DNA from: an uncultured Burkholderiales bacterium
GTDB lineage: Bacteria > Pseudomonadota > Gammaproteobacteria > Burkholderiales > Burkholderiaceae_C
Reading direction: 5' to 3'
DNA: 58,638 bases
Assembly: GCA_903820745.1 (NCBI GenBank)
Contig: CAIJIT010000151.1
Location: 1 to 58,638 of the forward strand
Positions 5,808 through 16,766 of the stretch are shown one piece after another. Both the position numbers and the translations under genes were made by a program. The first letter of the stretch is position 1, and each line of letters begins with the position of its first letter. The notes below the pieces were generated by a model. That model was not told the DNA's origin and did not search any database. It was given only the letters and a program-made list of their open reading frames with translations.

Positions 5808-7556
5808 TCAGGGCTTCTTGACCTGGTCGTTCTTCATGGCTTCCATCAGACCCTTCATCGGGTCTTCCTTTTCTTCCTCAACCGGGGGGGCACCCGAAGC
5901 TCCTGGCGCAGCGGCATCGACCTGCTCGGTTTTTGGCAGCTTCGGTGCCGCCTGCATTTCCTGGAAAACCTTTTCAGCGTCTATGGGGGTCTCTTTGCTC
6001 AGACCGCTGGACACCAGCGTCGGGAAGGCGATGATCAGGCCGACCATCACGACCTGGATCACGACGAAGGGTACCGCGCCCCAGTAGATCTGCTCGATGG
6101 TGATCTTCTTGATCGGCATCTTGGTCACCTTGTCGGTGTAATCCTCGGCAGGTGCGACGCTGCGCAGATAGAACAGCGCGAAGCCGAAAGGCGGATGCAT
6201 GAACGAAGTCTGCATATTGACTGCCAGCAGTACGCCGAACCAGACCAGATCGATGCCGAGCTTTTCTGCCACCGGCCCGATCAAGGGGATGATGATGAAA
6301 GCGAGCTCGAAAAAGTCCAGGAAAAAGGCCAGGACAAAGACCAGAATATTCACGACGATCAGGAATCCCAGTTGCCCGCCAGGCAGGCCGGAAAGCAGAC
6401 GTTCAACCCATTTGGGCCCGTCGACACCCTGGAATGCTAGGCTGAACACGGTCGCGCCGATCAGGATGAAGAGCACGAAACAGGATAGCTTCATGGTCGA
6501 ATCCATCGCCTGGCGAATCAACTTCAGGTCGATCCGGCCGCGCATCAAGGCCATCACCAAAGCGCCTGTAGACCCCATCGCCCCACCTTCAGTGGGAGTT
6601 GCAATTCCCAGGAAGATGGTGCCGAGCACGAGGAAAATCAACGCCAGGGGCGGGATCAGTACGAAGGTGACGCGCTCGGCCATGCGCGACAGTAGTCCGA
6701 GGCCGGTCAGTTTGTTCAGCAACGAGGCAATGAAGGCAAAACCCACGCCGACGCACATCGAAGTCACGATCATTTCATCGAGCGGTGTCCCATCAGGCCT
6801 GGACTTGGCAAAGCTCATGGCTGCAGCCACCGAGACGACCACCAGGACGCACAGCGAGCGCAGGCCCGATGAGCCATTGTCTTCGCGGATCGTTCTTGCT
6901 TCAGCCGGCAAGGCCGGCACCCATTGCGGCCGCACGAAGCTTATCAGCAGGACATAGCCGATATAGAGGGCAGTCAGAACGAAGCCGGGGATGAACGCGC
7001 CCTTGTACAGGTCGCCGACGCTCTTGCCCAGTTGGTCTGCCAGCACGATCAGCACCAGCGATGGCGGAATGATCTGCGCCAAGGTGCCCGAGGCGGCGAT
7101 CACACCACCTGCGACGCGCCGGTCGTAGCCATAGCGCAGCATGATCGGCAAAGAGATCAAGCCCATCGAGATCACCGAGGCAGCGACTACGCCAGTGGTG
7201 GCAGCAAGCATCGCGCCGACCAGAATCACTGCGTAAGCCAGACCGCCGCGGATCGGTCCGAAAAGCTGGCCGATCGTATCCAGCAGGTCTTCCGCCATGC
7301 CCGATCGCTCAAGGATCAGACCCATGAAGGTGAAGAACGGGATCGCCAGCAAGGTGTCGTTCTGCATGATGCCGAACATTCGCAGCGGCAGGCTTTGCAG
7401 AAAAGCCGGTTGGATCATCCCGAGTTCGACGCCGACAAAGCCGAAGAACAGCCCGCAAGCGGCGAGCGAAAAAGCGACCGCATACCCGAACATCAGGAAG
7501 AGGATCAGCGACGCGAACATGATTGGTGCCATATTGGCGATCAGGAACTCATTCAT
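5808..7556 (-). CDS. TRAP transporter large permease (DctM type)
   Basis: Large membrane subunit that carries the substrate, driven by a sodium gradient. With 582 residues it is longer than the usual 430 or so. About a dozen hydrophobic segments are visible, with the family signatures IPFFTFMGLILERSGMAEDLL, GGVIAASGTLAQIIPPS and the repeat-like TPTEGGAMG. The extra length is a central insert plus a C-terminal hydrophilic tail of about 70 residues, rich in Pro, Ala, Glu and Lys. The long form is typical of the branch that pairs with TakP-like receptors. Its ATG overlaps the stop of the small subunit by 4 bases (7553-7556). Confidence 0.92.
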   Translation of the reverse strand: MNEFLIANMAPIMFASLILFLMFGYAVAFSLAACGLFFGFVGVELGMIQPAFLQSLPLRMFGIMQNDTLLAIPFFTFMGLILERSGMAEDLLDTIGQLFGPIRGGLAYAVILVGAMLAATTGVVAASVISMGLISLPIMLRYGYDRRVAGGVIAASGTLAQIIPPSLVLIVLADQLGKSVGDLYKGAFIPGFVLTALYIGYVLLISFVRPQWVPALPAEARTIREDNGSSGLRSLCVLVVVSVAAAMSFAKSRPDGTPLDEMIVTSMCVGVGFAFIASLLNKLTGLGLLSRMAERVTFVLIPPLALIFLVLGTIFLGIATPTEGGAMGSTGALVMALMRGRIDLKLIRQAMDSTMKLSCFVLFILIGATVFSLAFQGVDGPKWVERLLSGLPGGQLGFLIVVNILVFVLAFFLDFFELAFIIIPLIGPVAEKLGIDLVWFGVLLAVNMQTSFMHPPFGFALFYLRSVAPAEDYTDKVTKMPIKKITIEQIYWGAVPFVVIQVVMVGLIIAFPTLVSSGLSKETPIDAEKVFQEMQAAPKLPKTEQVDAAAPGASGAPPVEEEKEDPMKGLMEAMKNDQVKKP

Positions 7557-12647: not shown

Positions 12648-13128
12648 TGGGGCAGCATTGCCTGCTGCTGTCGGCCGACTTGCTGTTCCTGGCTGAATAG
12701 CTGACGCTGCCGCCCTGCAAGACCAGCGACAGTTCTGCACATTCACTGTCTTGACTCTGGACGCTGCCGCTCAAAGGGCTGGCGCGAACGATGAAACCAT
12801 TGTTGAAACTGGCCGGATTCCCCAGGCCGGACAAGCTCAAGCTGTAAAGCTGGGCCGGTGAATTCGGCGCCAGCTGCAGGTCCGAGAGCGCTGCAGCGTC
12901 GCTGTTGCGGTTGCTGCCCCAGCGCTCCTGGGCCTGCAGGACTGCGCTCAGAGCATTGATGGCGTCGACCCTCCTGCCCTTGATCAATTGGTTCTGATAG
13001 GCGGGCAGAGTGACCGCGGCAAGCAGTCCCGAGATCAGCATCACCAGCATCACCTCGATCAGCGTGAAACCTGTACCTGCAAATGGGTAAGTTGAACGGC
13101 CTTGCTGTGGATGTCTGTTTGCTCGCAT
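12394..13128 (-). pseudogene. Type IV pilin-like (PilE/FimT-type) gene with frameshifted 3' end
   Basis: The protein starts MRANRHPQQGRSTYPFAGTG then FTLIEVMLVMLISGLLAAVTL. Thus it has a 20-residue leader, prepilin cleavage after Gly20, Phe+1, Glu+5 and a hydrophobic assembly helix. The pilin body follows to about residue 160, ending in ADSSRQCCPN. Related pilins end near RQCWP; inserting one G at about 12653 would give TGC TGG CCC CAA TGA, a stop exactly overlapping the pilW-like ATG. Without it, the frame runs through 83 further meaningless residues to 12394. The start ATG is at 13128 with no strong ribosome binding site. It could still make an extended pilin, but loss of function is likelier. 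Confidence 0.7.
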
Positions 13129-13305
13129 CGATGGTTCCCGGCGTGTGGAAAATTGCCACAAAGGGTCGGGTCGAGACGCCGGCACCTGGCAATAAGCATG
13201 CAATCAACCGGGAAATAAAAATTGCGGACAACACAGGGGCAATAATGGTGCATAGCTTTGCTGGGAGCAGAAGACTTCAATCCAGCCGATCCAAGGGAGC
13301 CCGTC

Positions 13306-13602
13306 ATGACAACAAAAAACCTCGTTTCTACGGCCTTTGCTGCCGCCATGGCCATCGGTCTGGTCGGGCAGGCCGCCGCGCATGATGCCGCCCAGGAAAA
13401 GGACGGCCGCGAAAAATGCTACGGCATCGTCAAGGTCGGCCAGAACGACTGTGCAAACTTGGGCGGCAGTCATTCCTGCGCTGGGCAAGCCAAGAACGAC
13501 AAAGCGCCGGAGGAATGGAAATATGTAGCCAAGGGCAGTTGCAAGTCCTTGGGCGGCTTGAGCAGCGTCGAGGCCCAGGCCCAGGCCAAGCTGAAGCGCT
13601 AG
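13306..13602 (+). CDS. Bufferin-type precursor peptide (DUF2282)
   Basis: A 98-residue precursor. Residues 1-25 form a signal peptide (hydrophobic core AFAAAMAIGLVG, likely cut after AAA25). The mature part has four cysteines, C38, C49, C58 and C79, in the DUF2282 pattern EKCYGIVK / NDCA / HSCAGQAK / GSCK. In characterised bufferins the DUF692 enzyme turns the two central cysteines into thiooxazoles, and the exported peptide binds copper. By that analogy C49 and C58 are the modified sites here. An AAGGGAG at 13293-13299 supports the ATG; longer frames to 13258 are not needed. It is the first gene of the operon, divergent from the pilin remnant. Confidence 0.9.
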   Translation: MTTKNLVSTAFAAAMAIGLVGQAAAHDAAQEKDGREKCYGIVKVGQNDCANLGGSHSCAGQAKNDKAPEEWKYVAKGSCKSLGGLSSVEAQAQAKLKR

Positions 13603-13634
13603 GCCGGGTAGGGTCCGCTAGACTCTGCCAAGGT

Positions 13635-13650
13635 GCTGCCAGGGGGCAGC
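13635..13650 (+). other. Small hairpin between the precursor gene and pcp
   Basis: GCTGCC (13635-13640) can pair with GGCAGC (13645-13650). There is no T run, so it is not an intrinsic terminator. It could protect the 3' end of the precursor mRNA, a common way to raise the peptide-to-enzyme ratio; this is inference. Confidence 0.35.
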
Positions 13651-13668
13651 CGATTGGGGCATGCATCG

Positions 13669-14310
13669 ATGAACAGGATTTTATTGACCGGTTTCGAACC
13701 CTTTGGCGGCGACCAGATCAATCCGTCCTGGGAGATCGCCAAGGCCATCAATGGCCAGAAGATCGCCGGCGTCAGTATCGTCGCCAGGATGCTGCCCTGC
13801 GTCTTTGGTGAGGCCTTGACGGTTTTGCGGCAGTCGCTCGATCAAGTCAATCCGGGCCTCGTTCTGGCGCTGGGTCAAGCGGGCGGACGCAGCGACTTTT
13901 CAATCGAACGGATCGCCATCAATATCGACGACGCCAGGATCGCCGACAACGCCGGTGCCAGGCCGATCGATCAGCCGGTTGTCGACGGTGCACCGGCAGC
14001 CTATTTCTCGACCTTGCCAATCAAGACGATGGTGACCGGTCTGCGGGCCGCAGGCCATCCTGCCAGCGTGTCACAGACTGCCGGTACTTTTGTTTGCAAC
14101 CATGTTTTCTTCGGTCTGCAGCATGCCTTGCATGGCAGCGGCGTGCGCAGCGGCTTCATGCATCTGCCCTTGTTGCCTGCTCAGGCCGCCAGGCTGGTTG
14201 GCCAGCCCAGCATGGCGTTGGATCAGATGCTGGCGGGTGTGCGTCTGGCGCTCGAACTGGCCTGGCCGATGGTGGCCGATCGGCGCGAAAGCGCTGGCAC
14301 GATCTCTTGA
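13669..14310 (+). CDS. pcp: Pyrrolidone-carboxylate peptidase (pyroglutamyl peptidase I)
   Basis: A 213-residue C15-family cysteine peptidase that removes N-terminal pyroglutamate from peptides in the cytoplasm. It begins [15 protein letters not shown], the family hallmark. The catalytic triad is visible: Glu in FSIERIAIN, Cys in [11 protein letters not shown] and His in SGFMHLPLL. Length is normal. It lies 66 bases after the DUF2282 gene and only 2 bases before the DUF692 gene, so it is inside the bufferin-type operon. A GTG at 13633 is also in frame but would add 12 unrelated residues. Whether it works in peptide turnover, maturation, or is a passenger cannot be told from sequence. Confidence 0.93.
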
Positions 14311-14312
14311 CG

Positions 14313-15146
14313 ATGGTCGGCATTGGCTGGCGCCAGCCGCATTATCAACAGCTGCTTGAGTTGTTGCCGGCACTCGATTTTGTCGAAGTCCATCCGGAAA
14401 ACTTCTTTGCGCCCGGCGGGGCATCGTTGCAGTTGCTGAAAGCCTGTCGCGAGCAATATCCAGTCAGTCTGCATGGCGTCGGGTTATCGCTCGGTTCGGC
14501 CTGCGGTCTCGACCGATGGCATCTGGACCGGCTGGCTGGATTGGTCGAGCTTGTGCAGCCTTTGTGCGTCTCGGACCATGCGAGCTTTTCCCGTATTCAT
14601 GCGGGGGATACTGCGATCCATGGCAACGATCTGCTGCCGATTCCATTCAGTTCGGCTTGCCTTGACCTGATGGTCACCCATATCCAGCAAGTTCAGGAGC
14701 GGCTGGGCCGCCAGATCCTGGTCGAGAACATCAGCGCCTACCTGGCCTGGGATGACGGCGAACAAATGACCGAGCCCGAATTTTTCAATCAGTTGACCAG
14801 GCGCAGTGGCTGCGGAATGCTGCTTGACGTCAACAATCTGATCGTCAATGCCCGCAACCAGGGCGCTGACCGTGATGCGGCGATCCGACAAGCCGGCTTA
14901 TGGATAGACCAGTTGCGCAGCGATTGCGTCGGCGAGATCCATCTGGCGGGCCATGCCGAACTGCCGGGCATCGTCATCGACGACCATGGCAGCAGCGTGC
15001 CAGATCTGGTCTGGCAGGTCTACGCCCATGCTTTGAAGACCTGCGGTGCGGTACCAAGCCTGATCGAATGGGATACAGCCATTCCGGCGCTGGACGTTCT
15101 GCTGGCTGAGGCCAACAAGGCCAGGCAACTGCAGGGGGCCGCATGA
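14313..15146 (+). CDS. DUF692 multinuclear iron oxidase (bufferin maturation enzyme)
   Basis: A 277-residue DUF692 TIM-barrel enzyme. Members use two or three iron atoms and oxygen to rework cysteines in peptides (thiooxazoles in bufferins, oxazolone-thioamide in methanobactin). Likely metal and active-site residues are present in the usual places: E25 and E29/N30 in EVHPEN, H54, D88/H89 (SDHASF), E139/N140 (VENISAY), D172/N174 (LLDVNN), H210 and H214 (EIHLAGH), H225 and E252/D254. The ATG at 14313 gives MVGIGWRQPHY, the family N-terminus. It overlaps the DUF2063 gene by 4 bases, so the two proteins are probably made together as a complex. Confidence 0.92.
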   Translation: MVGIGWRQPHYQQLLELLPALDFVEVHPENFFAPGGASLQLLKACREQYPVSLHGVGLSLGSACGLDRWHLDRLAGLVELVQPLCVSDHASFSRIHAGDTAIHGNDLLPIPFSSACLDLMVTHIQQVQERLGRQILVENISAYLAWDDGEQMTEPEFFNQLTRRSGCGMLLDVNNLIVNARNQGADRDAAIRQAGLWIDQLRSDCVGEIHLAGHAELPGIVIDDHGSSVPDLVWQVYAHALKTCGAVPSLIEWDTAIPALDVLLAEANKARQLQGAA

Positions 15147-15895
15147 GCGGGTATCTGGCGGCGCGGCAGCAGGCGCTGCTGGCAGCGCTGAGCGGCGCGT
15201 CCAGGCCCATCGGTATCGTGCCGCTGACTGCAGTCGAGTTGCAGCGGGGGCTGCAGGCTTACCAGGTCAACGCTCAGGTCTTGTCTGTACGGGCTTTGGC
15301 TGCGGTCTACCCGAAGGTCCGCCAGATCATCGGTGAAGCATCGTTTCGGGCCATGGCCTGGGCATTCTGGCGCCGTCATCCGCCGCAGCAAGCTGATCTG
15401 GGCGGTTGGGGCAAATTGCTGTCCGGGTTTCTGGCAGCGCAGGATGAAATGGAGGGCTGGCTCTGCGATCTGGCAAGACTTGAATGGGCGGCACATCTGG
15501 CTGAGCGCGCGGCTGACCTGGCTTTTGACCCTGGGTCGCTCGACTTGCTGGCAAGTCAGGATCCGGCACAACTGCGCTTGCAGTTGCCCGCGGGCTTGAG
15601 TCTGCTGCAGGTACAGGCCGAGGCCTGGTCGATTTGGGCGGGCGAGGTCGCAGACGAATCTTCACAAGCCGTCATTCCGGTCCTGCTTTGGCGTCAGCGC
15701 TGGCTTGCCAAAGGGCAGCGGCTGAGTCAAGGCGATTCGCAGTGGCTGCAAGCGCTGATCGATGGCCGGACGCTTGAAGTGGCGCTGCAGCAGGCTTTCG
15801 TTGCCGATGTTGGATTTGATTTTTCGGCCTGGCTGCAAGCCGCGCTGCGCGAGGGCTGGCTGCAGGGCGCAACCCGGGTTATTCCTGGGGCTTGA
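15143..15895 (+). CDS. DUF2063 partner protein (bufferin maturation, BufC/HvfC-like)
   Basis: A 250-residue DUF2063 protein. Relatives work with DUF692 enzymes and help recruit the precursor peptide. The N-terminal domain begins MSGYLAARQQALLAALSG and continues with RGLQAYQVNAQVLSVRALAAVYP, the typical YRxN-like helix pair. A second domain with AEAWSIWAG and PVLLWRQRWLAKGQ follows. The ATG overlaps the stop of the DUF692 gene (ATGA). Its last 17 bases (15879-15895) overlap the 3' end of the convergent tolA. No DoxX or further bufferin gene follows. Confidence 0.9.
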   Translation: MSGYLAARQQALLAALSGASRPIGIVPLTAVELQRGLQAYQVNAQVLSVRALAAVYPKVRQIIGEASFRAMAWAFWRRHPPQQADLGGWGKLLSGFLAAQDEMEGWLCDLARLEWAAHLAERAADLAFDPGSLDLLASQDPAQLRLQLPAGLSLLQVQAEAWSIWAGEVADESSQAVIPVLLWRQRWLAKGQRLSQGDSQWLQALIDGRTLEVALQQAFVADVGFDFSAWLQAALREGWLQGATRVIPGA

Positions 15896-16766
15896 AGCTG
15901 ATCACCAGCAGCGCTGGCACGCGGCCATCGACATCGCGCGGCAGCAAGTCGGTCTTGTCGATCGCACGCAGCACGGCTTTGTCCCATTCGGCATCGCCGC
16001 TGGGCTTGAGCAGCTTGCGCGAGATGATGGTGCCGTCGGGGGCTGTGCGCACTTCGACTTCGGCCACCGGGTTGCCGCTGCCGCTGTCGGTGTAGATGAT
16101 ATTGGGGCGGATGCGGGCCTTGATTCGCCCGCCATAGCTTGCGCTGGGTCCTGAGCTCTGCAGCGCATTGCCGGTCGCATTGGCGCCGCCACTCGCACCG
16201 GCCATGCCCTGGATGCGGCGCAGATTGTCCTGGCGCTGCGCGGCTATCTTGGCGTCGGCCTTGGCCTGCAGCTTGGCCTCGGCTTCCTTGGCCAGTTTGT
16301 CCTGCTTTTCTTGTTTGAGCTTGGCCTCAAGCTTGTCCTGCTTGATCTTGGCCTGCTTTTCGCGCTCGGCGGCCTGTTCCTTCAGTGCGGCTTTCTTGCG
16401 CGCAGCTTCAAGTTCTGCCAAGCGCAAGGTCTCGCGCTTTTTTTCATCACGCGCCTTGGCGATCGCGATGTCGGCATCGCGCAAGGCCTGCTGGTCTTCA
16501 ACCGGAACCGGCTTGGGCAAGGGCGATGGTTCGGCTTTGGGTGGTGCGGGTGGCGGCAGCTCTTCGCGCGGCGCCGCGGCCTGCGGCACAGCAGACCATA
16601 ACTCAGCCTCGAACGCGGGCAATGGATCGGTGCGCCAACTGACTCCGGCGCTCAATGCTGCCAGCAGCAAGCCATGGGCCGCAATCGCAAACAACAGGCC
16701 ACGAGCCATTCCCGGCGCATTTGGCGGCAACAAGGGCCCGGCATCACGAAGGGAGTTCACAGTCAT
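15879..16766 (-). CDS. tolA: TolA, energy-transducing inner-membrane protein of the Tol-Pal system
   Basis: Spans the periplasm and links the TolQR motor to Pal and TolB at the outer membrane, needed for outer-membrane constriction. The 295 residues show an N-terminal membrane helix at about 19-42 (GLLFAIAAHGLLLAALS), a Pro-rich stretch, a long Ala/Lys/Glu/Gln helical domain at about 90-185, and a C-terminal TonB-like domain with YGGRIKARIRPNIIY and GTIISRKLLKPSGDAEWDKAV. It starts 24 bases after tolR. tolB and pal, which usually come next, are absent: the gene ends against bufferin-operon DNA. Confidence 0.95.
   Translation of the reverse strand: MTVNSLRDAGPLLPPNAPGMARGLLFAIAAHGLLLAALSAGVSWRTDPLPAFEAELWSAVPQAAAPREELPPPAPPKAEPSPLPKPVPVEDQQALRDADIAIAKARDEKKRETLRLAELEAARKKAALKEQAAEREKQAKIKQDKLEAKLKQEKQDKLAKEAEAKLQAKADAKIAAQRQDNLRRIQGMAGASGGANATGNALQSSGPSASYGGRIKARIRPNIIYTDSGSGNPVAEVEVRTAPDGTIISRKLLKPSGDAEWDKAVLRAIDKTDLLPRDVDGRVPALLVISFKPQE

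Follow-up and report, generated by a model that had tools for sequence, protein, structure and literature searches.

The bufferins form a large family of copper-binding ribosomally synthesized and post-translationally modified peptides (RiPPs), whose regulation and accessory genes have been little explored. Thousands of Buf1 and Buf2 precursors have been catalogued (main text of PMC12452194). The same text describes Buf1 operons with genes for a DUF2282 precursor, an MNIO enzyme, a DUF2063 partner and DoxX, and it reports rare extra genes, one group of which is inserted between the MNIO and partner genes, as well as precursors lying apart from MNIO genes, so that contiguity is not a strict requirement for a Buf1 operon. 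In the captophorins (fontiphorin and relatives), as far as the accessible text of PMC12668002 goes, an MNIO enzyme with a PME1 partner installs a 5-thiooxazole, DUF2282 proteins are one of three precursor groups and the type examined most closely there carries EGKCG repeats. Here we analysed a 58,638-nucleotide stretch of DNA from an uncultured Burkholderiales bacterium (contig CAIJIT010000151.1; hereafter the window), in which positions 13306–15895 hold a Buf1 bufferin/captophorin operon with a gene for pyroglutamyl peptidase I (Pcp) between its precursor and maturase genes. The kind of operon is already known, widespread and abundant; what makes this one a variant is the internal Pcp together with the loss of a promoter-like motif and of doxX. 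We read the locus, with a probability of roughly 0.8, as a rewired Buf1 operon in which an ordinary cytosolic Pcp was captured by rearrangement and is kept for its own function, and not as one with a proven maturation enzyme. The features are as follows.

13176..13305, plus strand: region upstream of bufA, without the TGTAA-N14..18-CGAC motif and with no sigma-70-type promoter match
13306..13602, plus strand: bufA, Buf1/DUF2282 precursor of 98 aa (profile match and sequence)
13603..13668, plus strand: bufA–pcp spacer of 66 nt with a GCTGCC..GGCAGC hairpin
13669..14310, plus strand: pcp, pyroglutamyl peptidase I (Peptidase_C15) of 213 aa with E80, C143 and H165
14308..14315, plus strand: pcp stop and bufB start, TGAcgATG, with a gap of 2 nt
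14313..15146, plus strand: bufB, MNIO (DUF692, PF05114) bufferin maturase of 277 aa
15143..15895, plus strand: bufC, DUF2063 and RRE-like partner (PME-type 1) of 250 aa, overlapping bufB by 4 bases (ATGA)
15879..16766, minus strand: tolA, a neighbour convergent with bufC, which it overlaps by 17 bases at its 3′ end; a right-hand landmark in 28 of 34 relatives

An earlier note on this DNA had proposed a bufferin-type operon of a DUF2282 precursor, a DUF692 enzyme and a DUF2063 partner. All four genes exceed the curated cut-offs of their Pfam families: BufA matched DUF2282 (PF10048) with 81.2 bits (cut-off 22.4), BufB matched PF05114 with 304.5 bits (cut-off 25), BufC matched DUF2063 with 53.5 bits (cut-off 27.2) and Pcp matched Peptidase_C15 (PF01470) with 245.8 bits (cut-off 22.7). 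Genome-wide searches gave a single match each for DUF2282, DUF692 and Peptidase_C15 in the genome to which the window belongs. The proposal of a Buf1 operon stands on its three families, to which the fold of BufC described below is added, and the 4-base overlap of bufB and bufC that it had claimed is present. The simple three-gene unit does not stand, since pcp had been overlooked: with pcp at 13669–14310, bufA and bufB are not adjacent, and the precursor, MNIO and partner genes are not contiguous. The remark that such systems are easily missed as hypothetical genes is dated, as Pfam and NCBIfam hold named MNIO and bufferin models and the catalogue of precursors runs to thousands.

The window shares with the Buf1 operons in the main text of PMC12452194 the precursor family, the four cysteines, a putative signal peptide called by rule, an MNIO enzyme with conserved ligand-type positions and a DUF2063 and RRE-like partner directly after it; it differs by pcp between bufA and bufB and by having neither doxX nor a sigma pair at the locus. 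The doxX and sigma/anti-sigma genes are frequent, not universal, in Buf1 operons. With the captophorins it has in common the MNIO enzyme and PME1 partner, its precursor being a four-cysteine DUF2282 protein in place of the EGKCG-repeat type on which PMC12668002 concentrates. The cysteines of BufA lie at positions 38, 49, 58 and 79, exactly where they had been claimed to be. A Sec-type signal peptide, judged only by eye and the AxA rule, would probably be cleaved between AAA and HDAA, which makes His the predicted first residue (+1) of the mature peptide. A Buf2 identity was considered and rejected: BufA scored 24.6 bits against the NCBIfam BufA2 model (cut-off 60) and has four cysteines, whereas BufA2 has 6 or 12. 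By the same simple rule, Gln is the predicted first mature residue in 46 of 83 bufferins of the bacterial family (loci L221–L272 plus the pcp-linked bufferins).

BufB aligned to the DUF692 structure 3bww with 114.5 bits. Among 87 sequences including the window (88 loci were searched, one of which had no match), H27, E29, H54, H89, E138, D172, H210, H225, E252 and D254 are each invariant, as the earlier note's expectation of His/Asp/Glu ligands would have it; two further positions vary, D88 being Asp in 73/87 and Glu in 14/87, and H214 being His in 68/87. Some of these positions are presumably metal ligands. The AlphaFold model of BufC has a predicted local distance difference test score (pLDDT) of 90.9, and a Foldseek search of the PDB at E ≤ 0.001 gave three matches, namely the TglHI complex (8hci and 8hi7, in both cases at chain A) and NGO1945 (3dee); TglH being chain D, we read chain A as TglI. 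NGO1945 is a typical DUF2063 and RRE partner, and TglI is the partner of TglH (main text of PMC12452194). Since the BufC model fits these MNIO partners, the partner looks complete in the model despite its divergent sequence. By analogy with the chemistry, Sec export and copper sequestration reported or inferred for relatives (main text of PMC12452194; accessible text of PMC12668002), BufC would present BufA to BufB, an iron enzyme that would oxidize the central C49 and C58 to thiooxazoles; the Sec machinery would then export the peptide, a C38–C79 disulphide would form and the exported peptide would bind excess copper in the periplasm.

Pcp also exceeds the cut-off of TIGR00504 (271.8 bits, cut-off 201.75). 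The residues E80, C143 and H165, which we take to be the catalytic triad, are present in the window and in all 146 aligned Pcps. The window protein resembles an ordinary pyroglutamyl peptidase I, presumably MEROPS family C15; it differs from those of pyroglutamate catabolism in sitting inside a RiPP operon, pcp following a 5-oxoprolinase-type gene in many relatives. No signal peptide was apparent in Pcp by eye. With pcp sitting between bufA and bufB in this lineage and ending 2 bases before bufB, Pcp probably shares a transcript with the bufferin genes and is probably translated immediately ahead of BufB, and we infer translational coupling of pcp and bufB. A Shine–Dalgarno-like string of at least 3 bases was found before neither bufB nor, by the same rule, pcp. 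An RNA attenuator in the bufA–pcp spacer was considered and rejected, as the folding energy is ordinary (z = −0.42) and is ordinary also in the two loci that share the gene order (L056 and L057); the spacer contained no terminator match, and no sigma-70 promoter or terminator was found across 13000–16000. Among the papers listed by our literature searches, which cover few subscription papers, none joined pyroglutamyl (or pyrrolidone) peptidase with MNIO or bufferin, and neither ‘pyroglutam’ nor ‘peptidase’ occurs in the main text of PMC12452194.

We next compared gene order in relatives by tblastn with the four window proteins across 135 loci, after a Pcp scan that kept the best 80 of 186 confirmed loci. 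Among these loci the order bufA–pcp–bufB–bufC recurs only in L056 and L057, whose Pcps are 91% and 90% identical to that of the window and which both have the 2-nt pcp–bufB gap. As two further assemblies have the same order, an assembly artefact was rejected as the source of the internal pcp. Five loci (L058, L060, L061, L067 and L109) have the order pcp–bufA–bufB–bufC, and the sequence of L059 breaks off inside bufA. Across 399 sampled genomes of the family, Pcp is present in 160, MNIO in 251 and both in 106; in at least 27 of these 106, the window included, pcp lies within 5 kb of an MNIO gene on the same strand, and a sigma homologue is present at the locus in 21 of the 27. Chance would link about 0.2 genomes (assuming 4.8 Mb per genome) against the 27 counted, these being related genomes and not independent ones. 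The count was made by comparing listed places by eye. Besides that of the window, 25 genomes were skipped in close reading, all but G049 and G293 because their MNIO places were already listed away from pcp; G049 was known already, G293, whose pcp place is not listed, and G200 are undecided, and in G219, G345, G390, G428, G445, G463 and G497 the reading took in no more than about 2.5 kb to either side of a single MNIO gene. With these gaps, 27 is a lower bound. G309 (5.3 kb), G379 (8.5 kb) and G585 (about 16 kb) fall outside it; G309 (L205) and G379 (L197) nevertheless belong to the 34 linked relative loci in which sigma and the motif were counted, and to the 37 linked rows of the Pcp tree. In other families, 7 genomes of a 200-genome order sample have both genes, none of them within 10 kb of each other (listed places, by eye). 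A quick Pcp tree placed 36 of the 37 bufferin-linked rows in one set of 43 rows (Shimodaira–Hasegawa-like approximate likelihood ratio test, 95), requiring 7 changes of label where shuffled labels needed 33 on average; the Pcp of L205 stands apart on another branch. We read the linkage, from these sequence comparisons, as one ancient neighbourhood that was probably inherited with losses.

The common layout in the family, which we read as ancestral, is pcp, then a divergent anti-sigma and extracytoplasmic function (ECF) sigma pair, a conserved promoter-like motif, and bufA–bufB–bufC–doxX beside tolA. Among the 34 linked relative loci, an ECF sigma homologue lies between pcp and bufA on the opposite strand in 23, and each of these 23 is accompanied by a small anti-sigma-like protein. 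One sigma representative was typed (Sigma70_r2, 47.6 bits; Sigma70_r4_2, 47.1 bits), as was one anti-sigma-like representative (zf-HC2, 21.4 bits, just below the cut-off of 22.2). A doxX homologue is present in 28 of the 34 and a tolA homologue likewise in 28, L059 again being cut off. The motif TGTAA-N14..18-CGAC, the left half usually TGTAAGGA, occurs within 300 bp before bufA in 30/34 loci (L058–L061, L067, L109, L194–L213, L215–L217 and L220): in all 23 that carry sigma, which served to derive the pattern, and in 7 of the 11 without. It precedes pcp in none of the 34. No copy stands before bufA in L056, L057, L218 or L219, nor anywhere in the 58.6-kb window. The motif is a concrete candidate for the promoter of the family's divergent ECF sigma factor. 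By tblastn the window contains neither the sigma pair nor doxX, the doxX search having covered the window; the genome has no close sigma homologue (best E 8e-4, 34% identity).

One further explanation of the linkage is that pcp and the bufferin genes share a role in the physiology of metal or oxidative stress, through the salvage of pyroglutamate and glutathione, without Pcp acting on the peptide, and that capture brought them under common control. To the left of pcp the neighbour differs between loci, being a 5-oxoprolinase-type gene, a large GspE-like gene or TRAP-transporter-like genes (the last two by eye), and the linkage is retained although these vary; in many loci pcp adjoins 5-oxoprolinase-type or PxpA-/carboxyltransferase-type genes. 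Such shared physiology would fit both observations. Most relatives, however, have divergent sigma genes between pcp and bufA, with pcp lacking the motif, and the linkage is essentially that of one clade, so that inertia accounts for it as well. We regard this explanation as rather unlikely. As a separate observation, L197 and L205 have pyroglutamate-catabolism-type genes between pcp and the sigma pair, with LamB/YcsF and carboxyltransferase domains in L205.

A direct role of Pcp in the bufferin pathway was also considered, in which it strips N-terminal pyroglutamate, formed by cyclization of a +1 Gln, from bufferins or from breakdown products of their turnover. The position of pcp within the operon in three genomes and its repeated occurrence as a neighbour elsewhere would agree with this, as would the 5-oxoprolinase-type gene preceding pcp in many loci and the +1 Gln predicted for many bufferins of the family. 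Yet +1 Gln is predicted for 15/34 linked and 31/49 unlinked bufferins (Fisher p = 0.12, the difference running the other way), on rule-based cleavage sites of which some are misplaced (for example in L058, L202 and L225). From this comparison L059 (cut off) and L218 and L219 (no normal precursor) were dropped as linked rows, and L257 and L265 (no precursor match) as unlinked rows. Since +1 Gln is not enriched among pcp-linked bufferins, removal of pyroglutamate gained no support and was rejected as a model. Moreover, the residue predicted at +1 of the window peptide is His, inspection by eye revealed no signal peptide in Pcp although the mature peptide is expected in the periplasm, 5 of 18 genomes of the genus hold a Buf1 locus without pcp, and the bufA motif precedes pcp in 0/34 loci. 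A role in the pathway is decidedly improbable, and recruitment of Pcp as an accessory to it, serving the turnover of the peptide or a salvage linked to metal stress and being coupled in translation to BufB, is only slightly less so.

We then turned to variation within the genus, for which 18 genomes were sampled and Pcp was present in 13. The internal order occurs in 3/18, namely the window, G603 (the same DNA as L056) and G605 (the same DNA as L057); pcp lies upstream of bufA in 9/18. All 14 other readable loci of the genus keep the motif before bufA, and doxX was seen in 13 of them (L295 is cut off). Within the genus, only the window lineage has lost the motif and doxX. On the reading that we favour, pcp, formerly an outside neighbour, moved between bufA and bufB in the window lineage, where the sigma pair, motif and doxX are gone from the locus. 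Both states occur in one genus: loci that have the motif, where pcp lies outside or is missing, and loci that lack it, where pcp is internal. This allows a test of whether the operon can do without the sigma module and DoxX, and of whether Pcp has any effect on the peptide. A further locus of the genus, L296 (G604, a genome 79% complete, on split contigs), has pcp and an orphan sigma pair, and the 5 kb that were read there contain no bufABC.

Several findings weigh against the capture of an ordinary Pcp by a Buf1 operon. BufB scores slightly below the cut-off of the NCBIfam BufB model (307.4 bits, cut-off 310) and BufC far below that of the HvfC model (18.7 bits, cut-off 142), and no promoter was recognized before bufA. 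The internal order is found in just three genomes. Of the 14 other readable loci of the genus, 7 have no sigma gene next to bufA, so its loss is not peculiar to the window lineage. Finally, selection on pcp would be the same whether the enzyme is a bystander or was recruited.

The ratio of nonsynonymous to synonymous substitution rates (dN/dS; simple Nei–Gojobori comparisons of the window with L056 and L057) is 0.08–0.09 for bufA, 0.18–0.20 for pcp (0.16–0.20 over all pairs of the three genomes), 0.12 for bufB and 0.27–0.38 for bufC. All four genes, at less than 0.4, are constrained, which is consistent with a live operon. The losses of sigma, motif and doxX at the locus might instead mark an operon in decay, into which pcp was inserted and from which the bufferin is no longer produced; bufC is the fastest evolving of the four genes, and L218 and L219 retain an MNIO gene beside a degraded precursor. 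In the window, by contrast, the frames are open, the four cysteines are intact, the ligand-type positions are invariant and dN/dS is 0.08–0.12 for bufA and bufB, and we consider decay very improbable.

Degraded precursors were seen elsewhere in the family. L218 (about 6499–7053) and L219 (5974–6177), from G483 and G545, have MNIO and DUF2063 genes beside a degraded bufA-like frame with at most two of the four cysteines. The same two genomes have other MNIO genes, with normal precursors in L228 and L227, leaving in L218 and L219 a maturase without its usual substrate.

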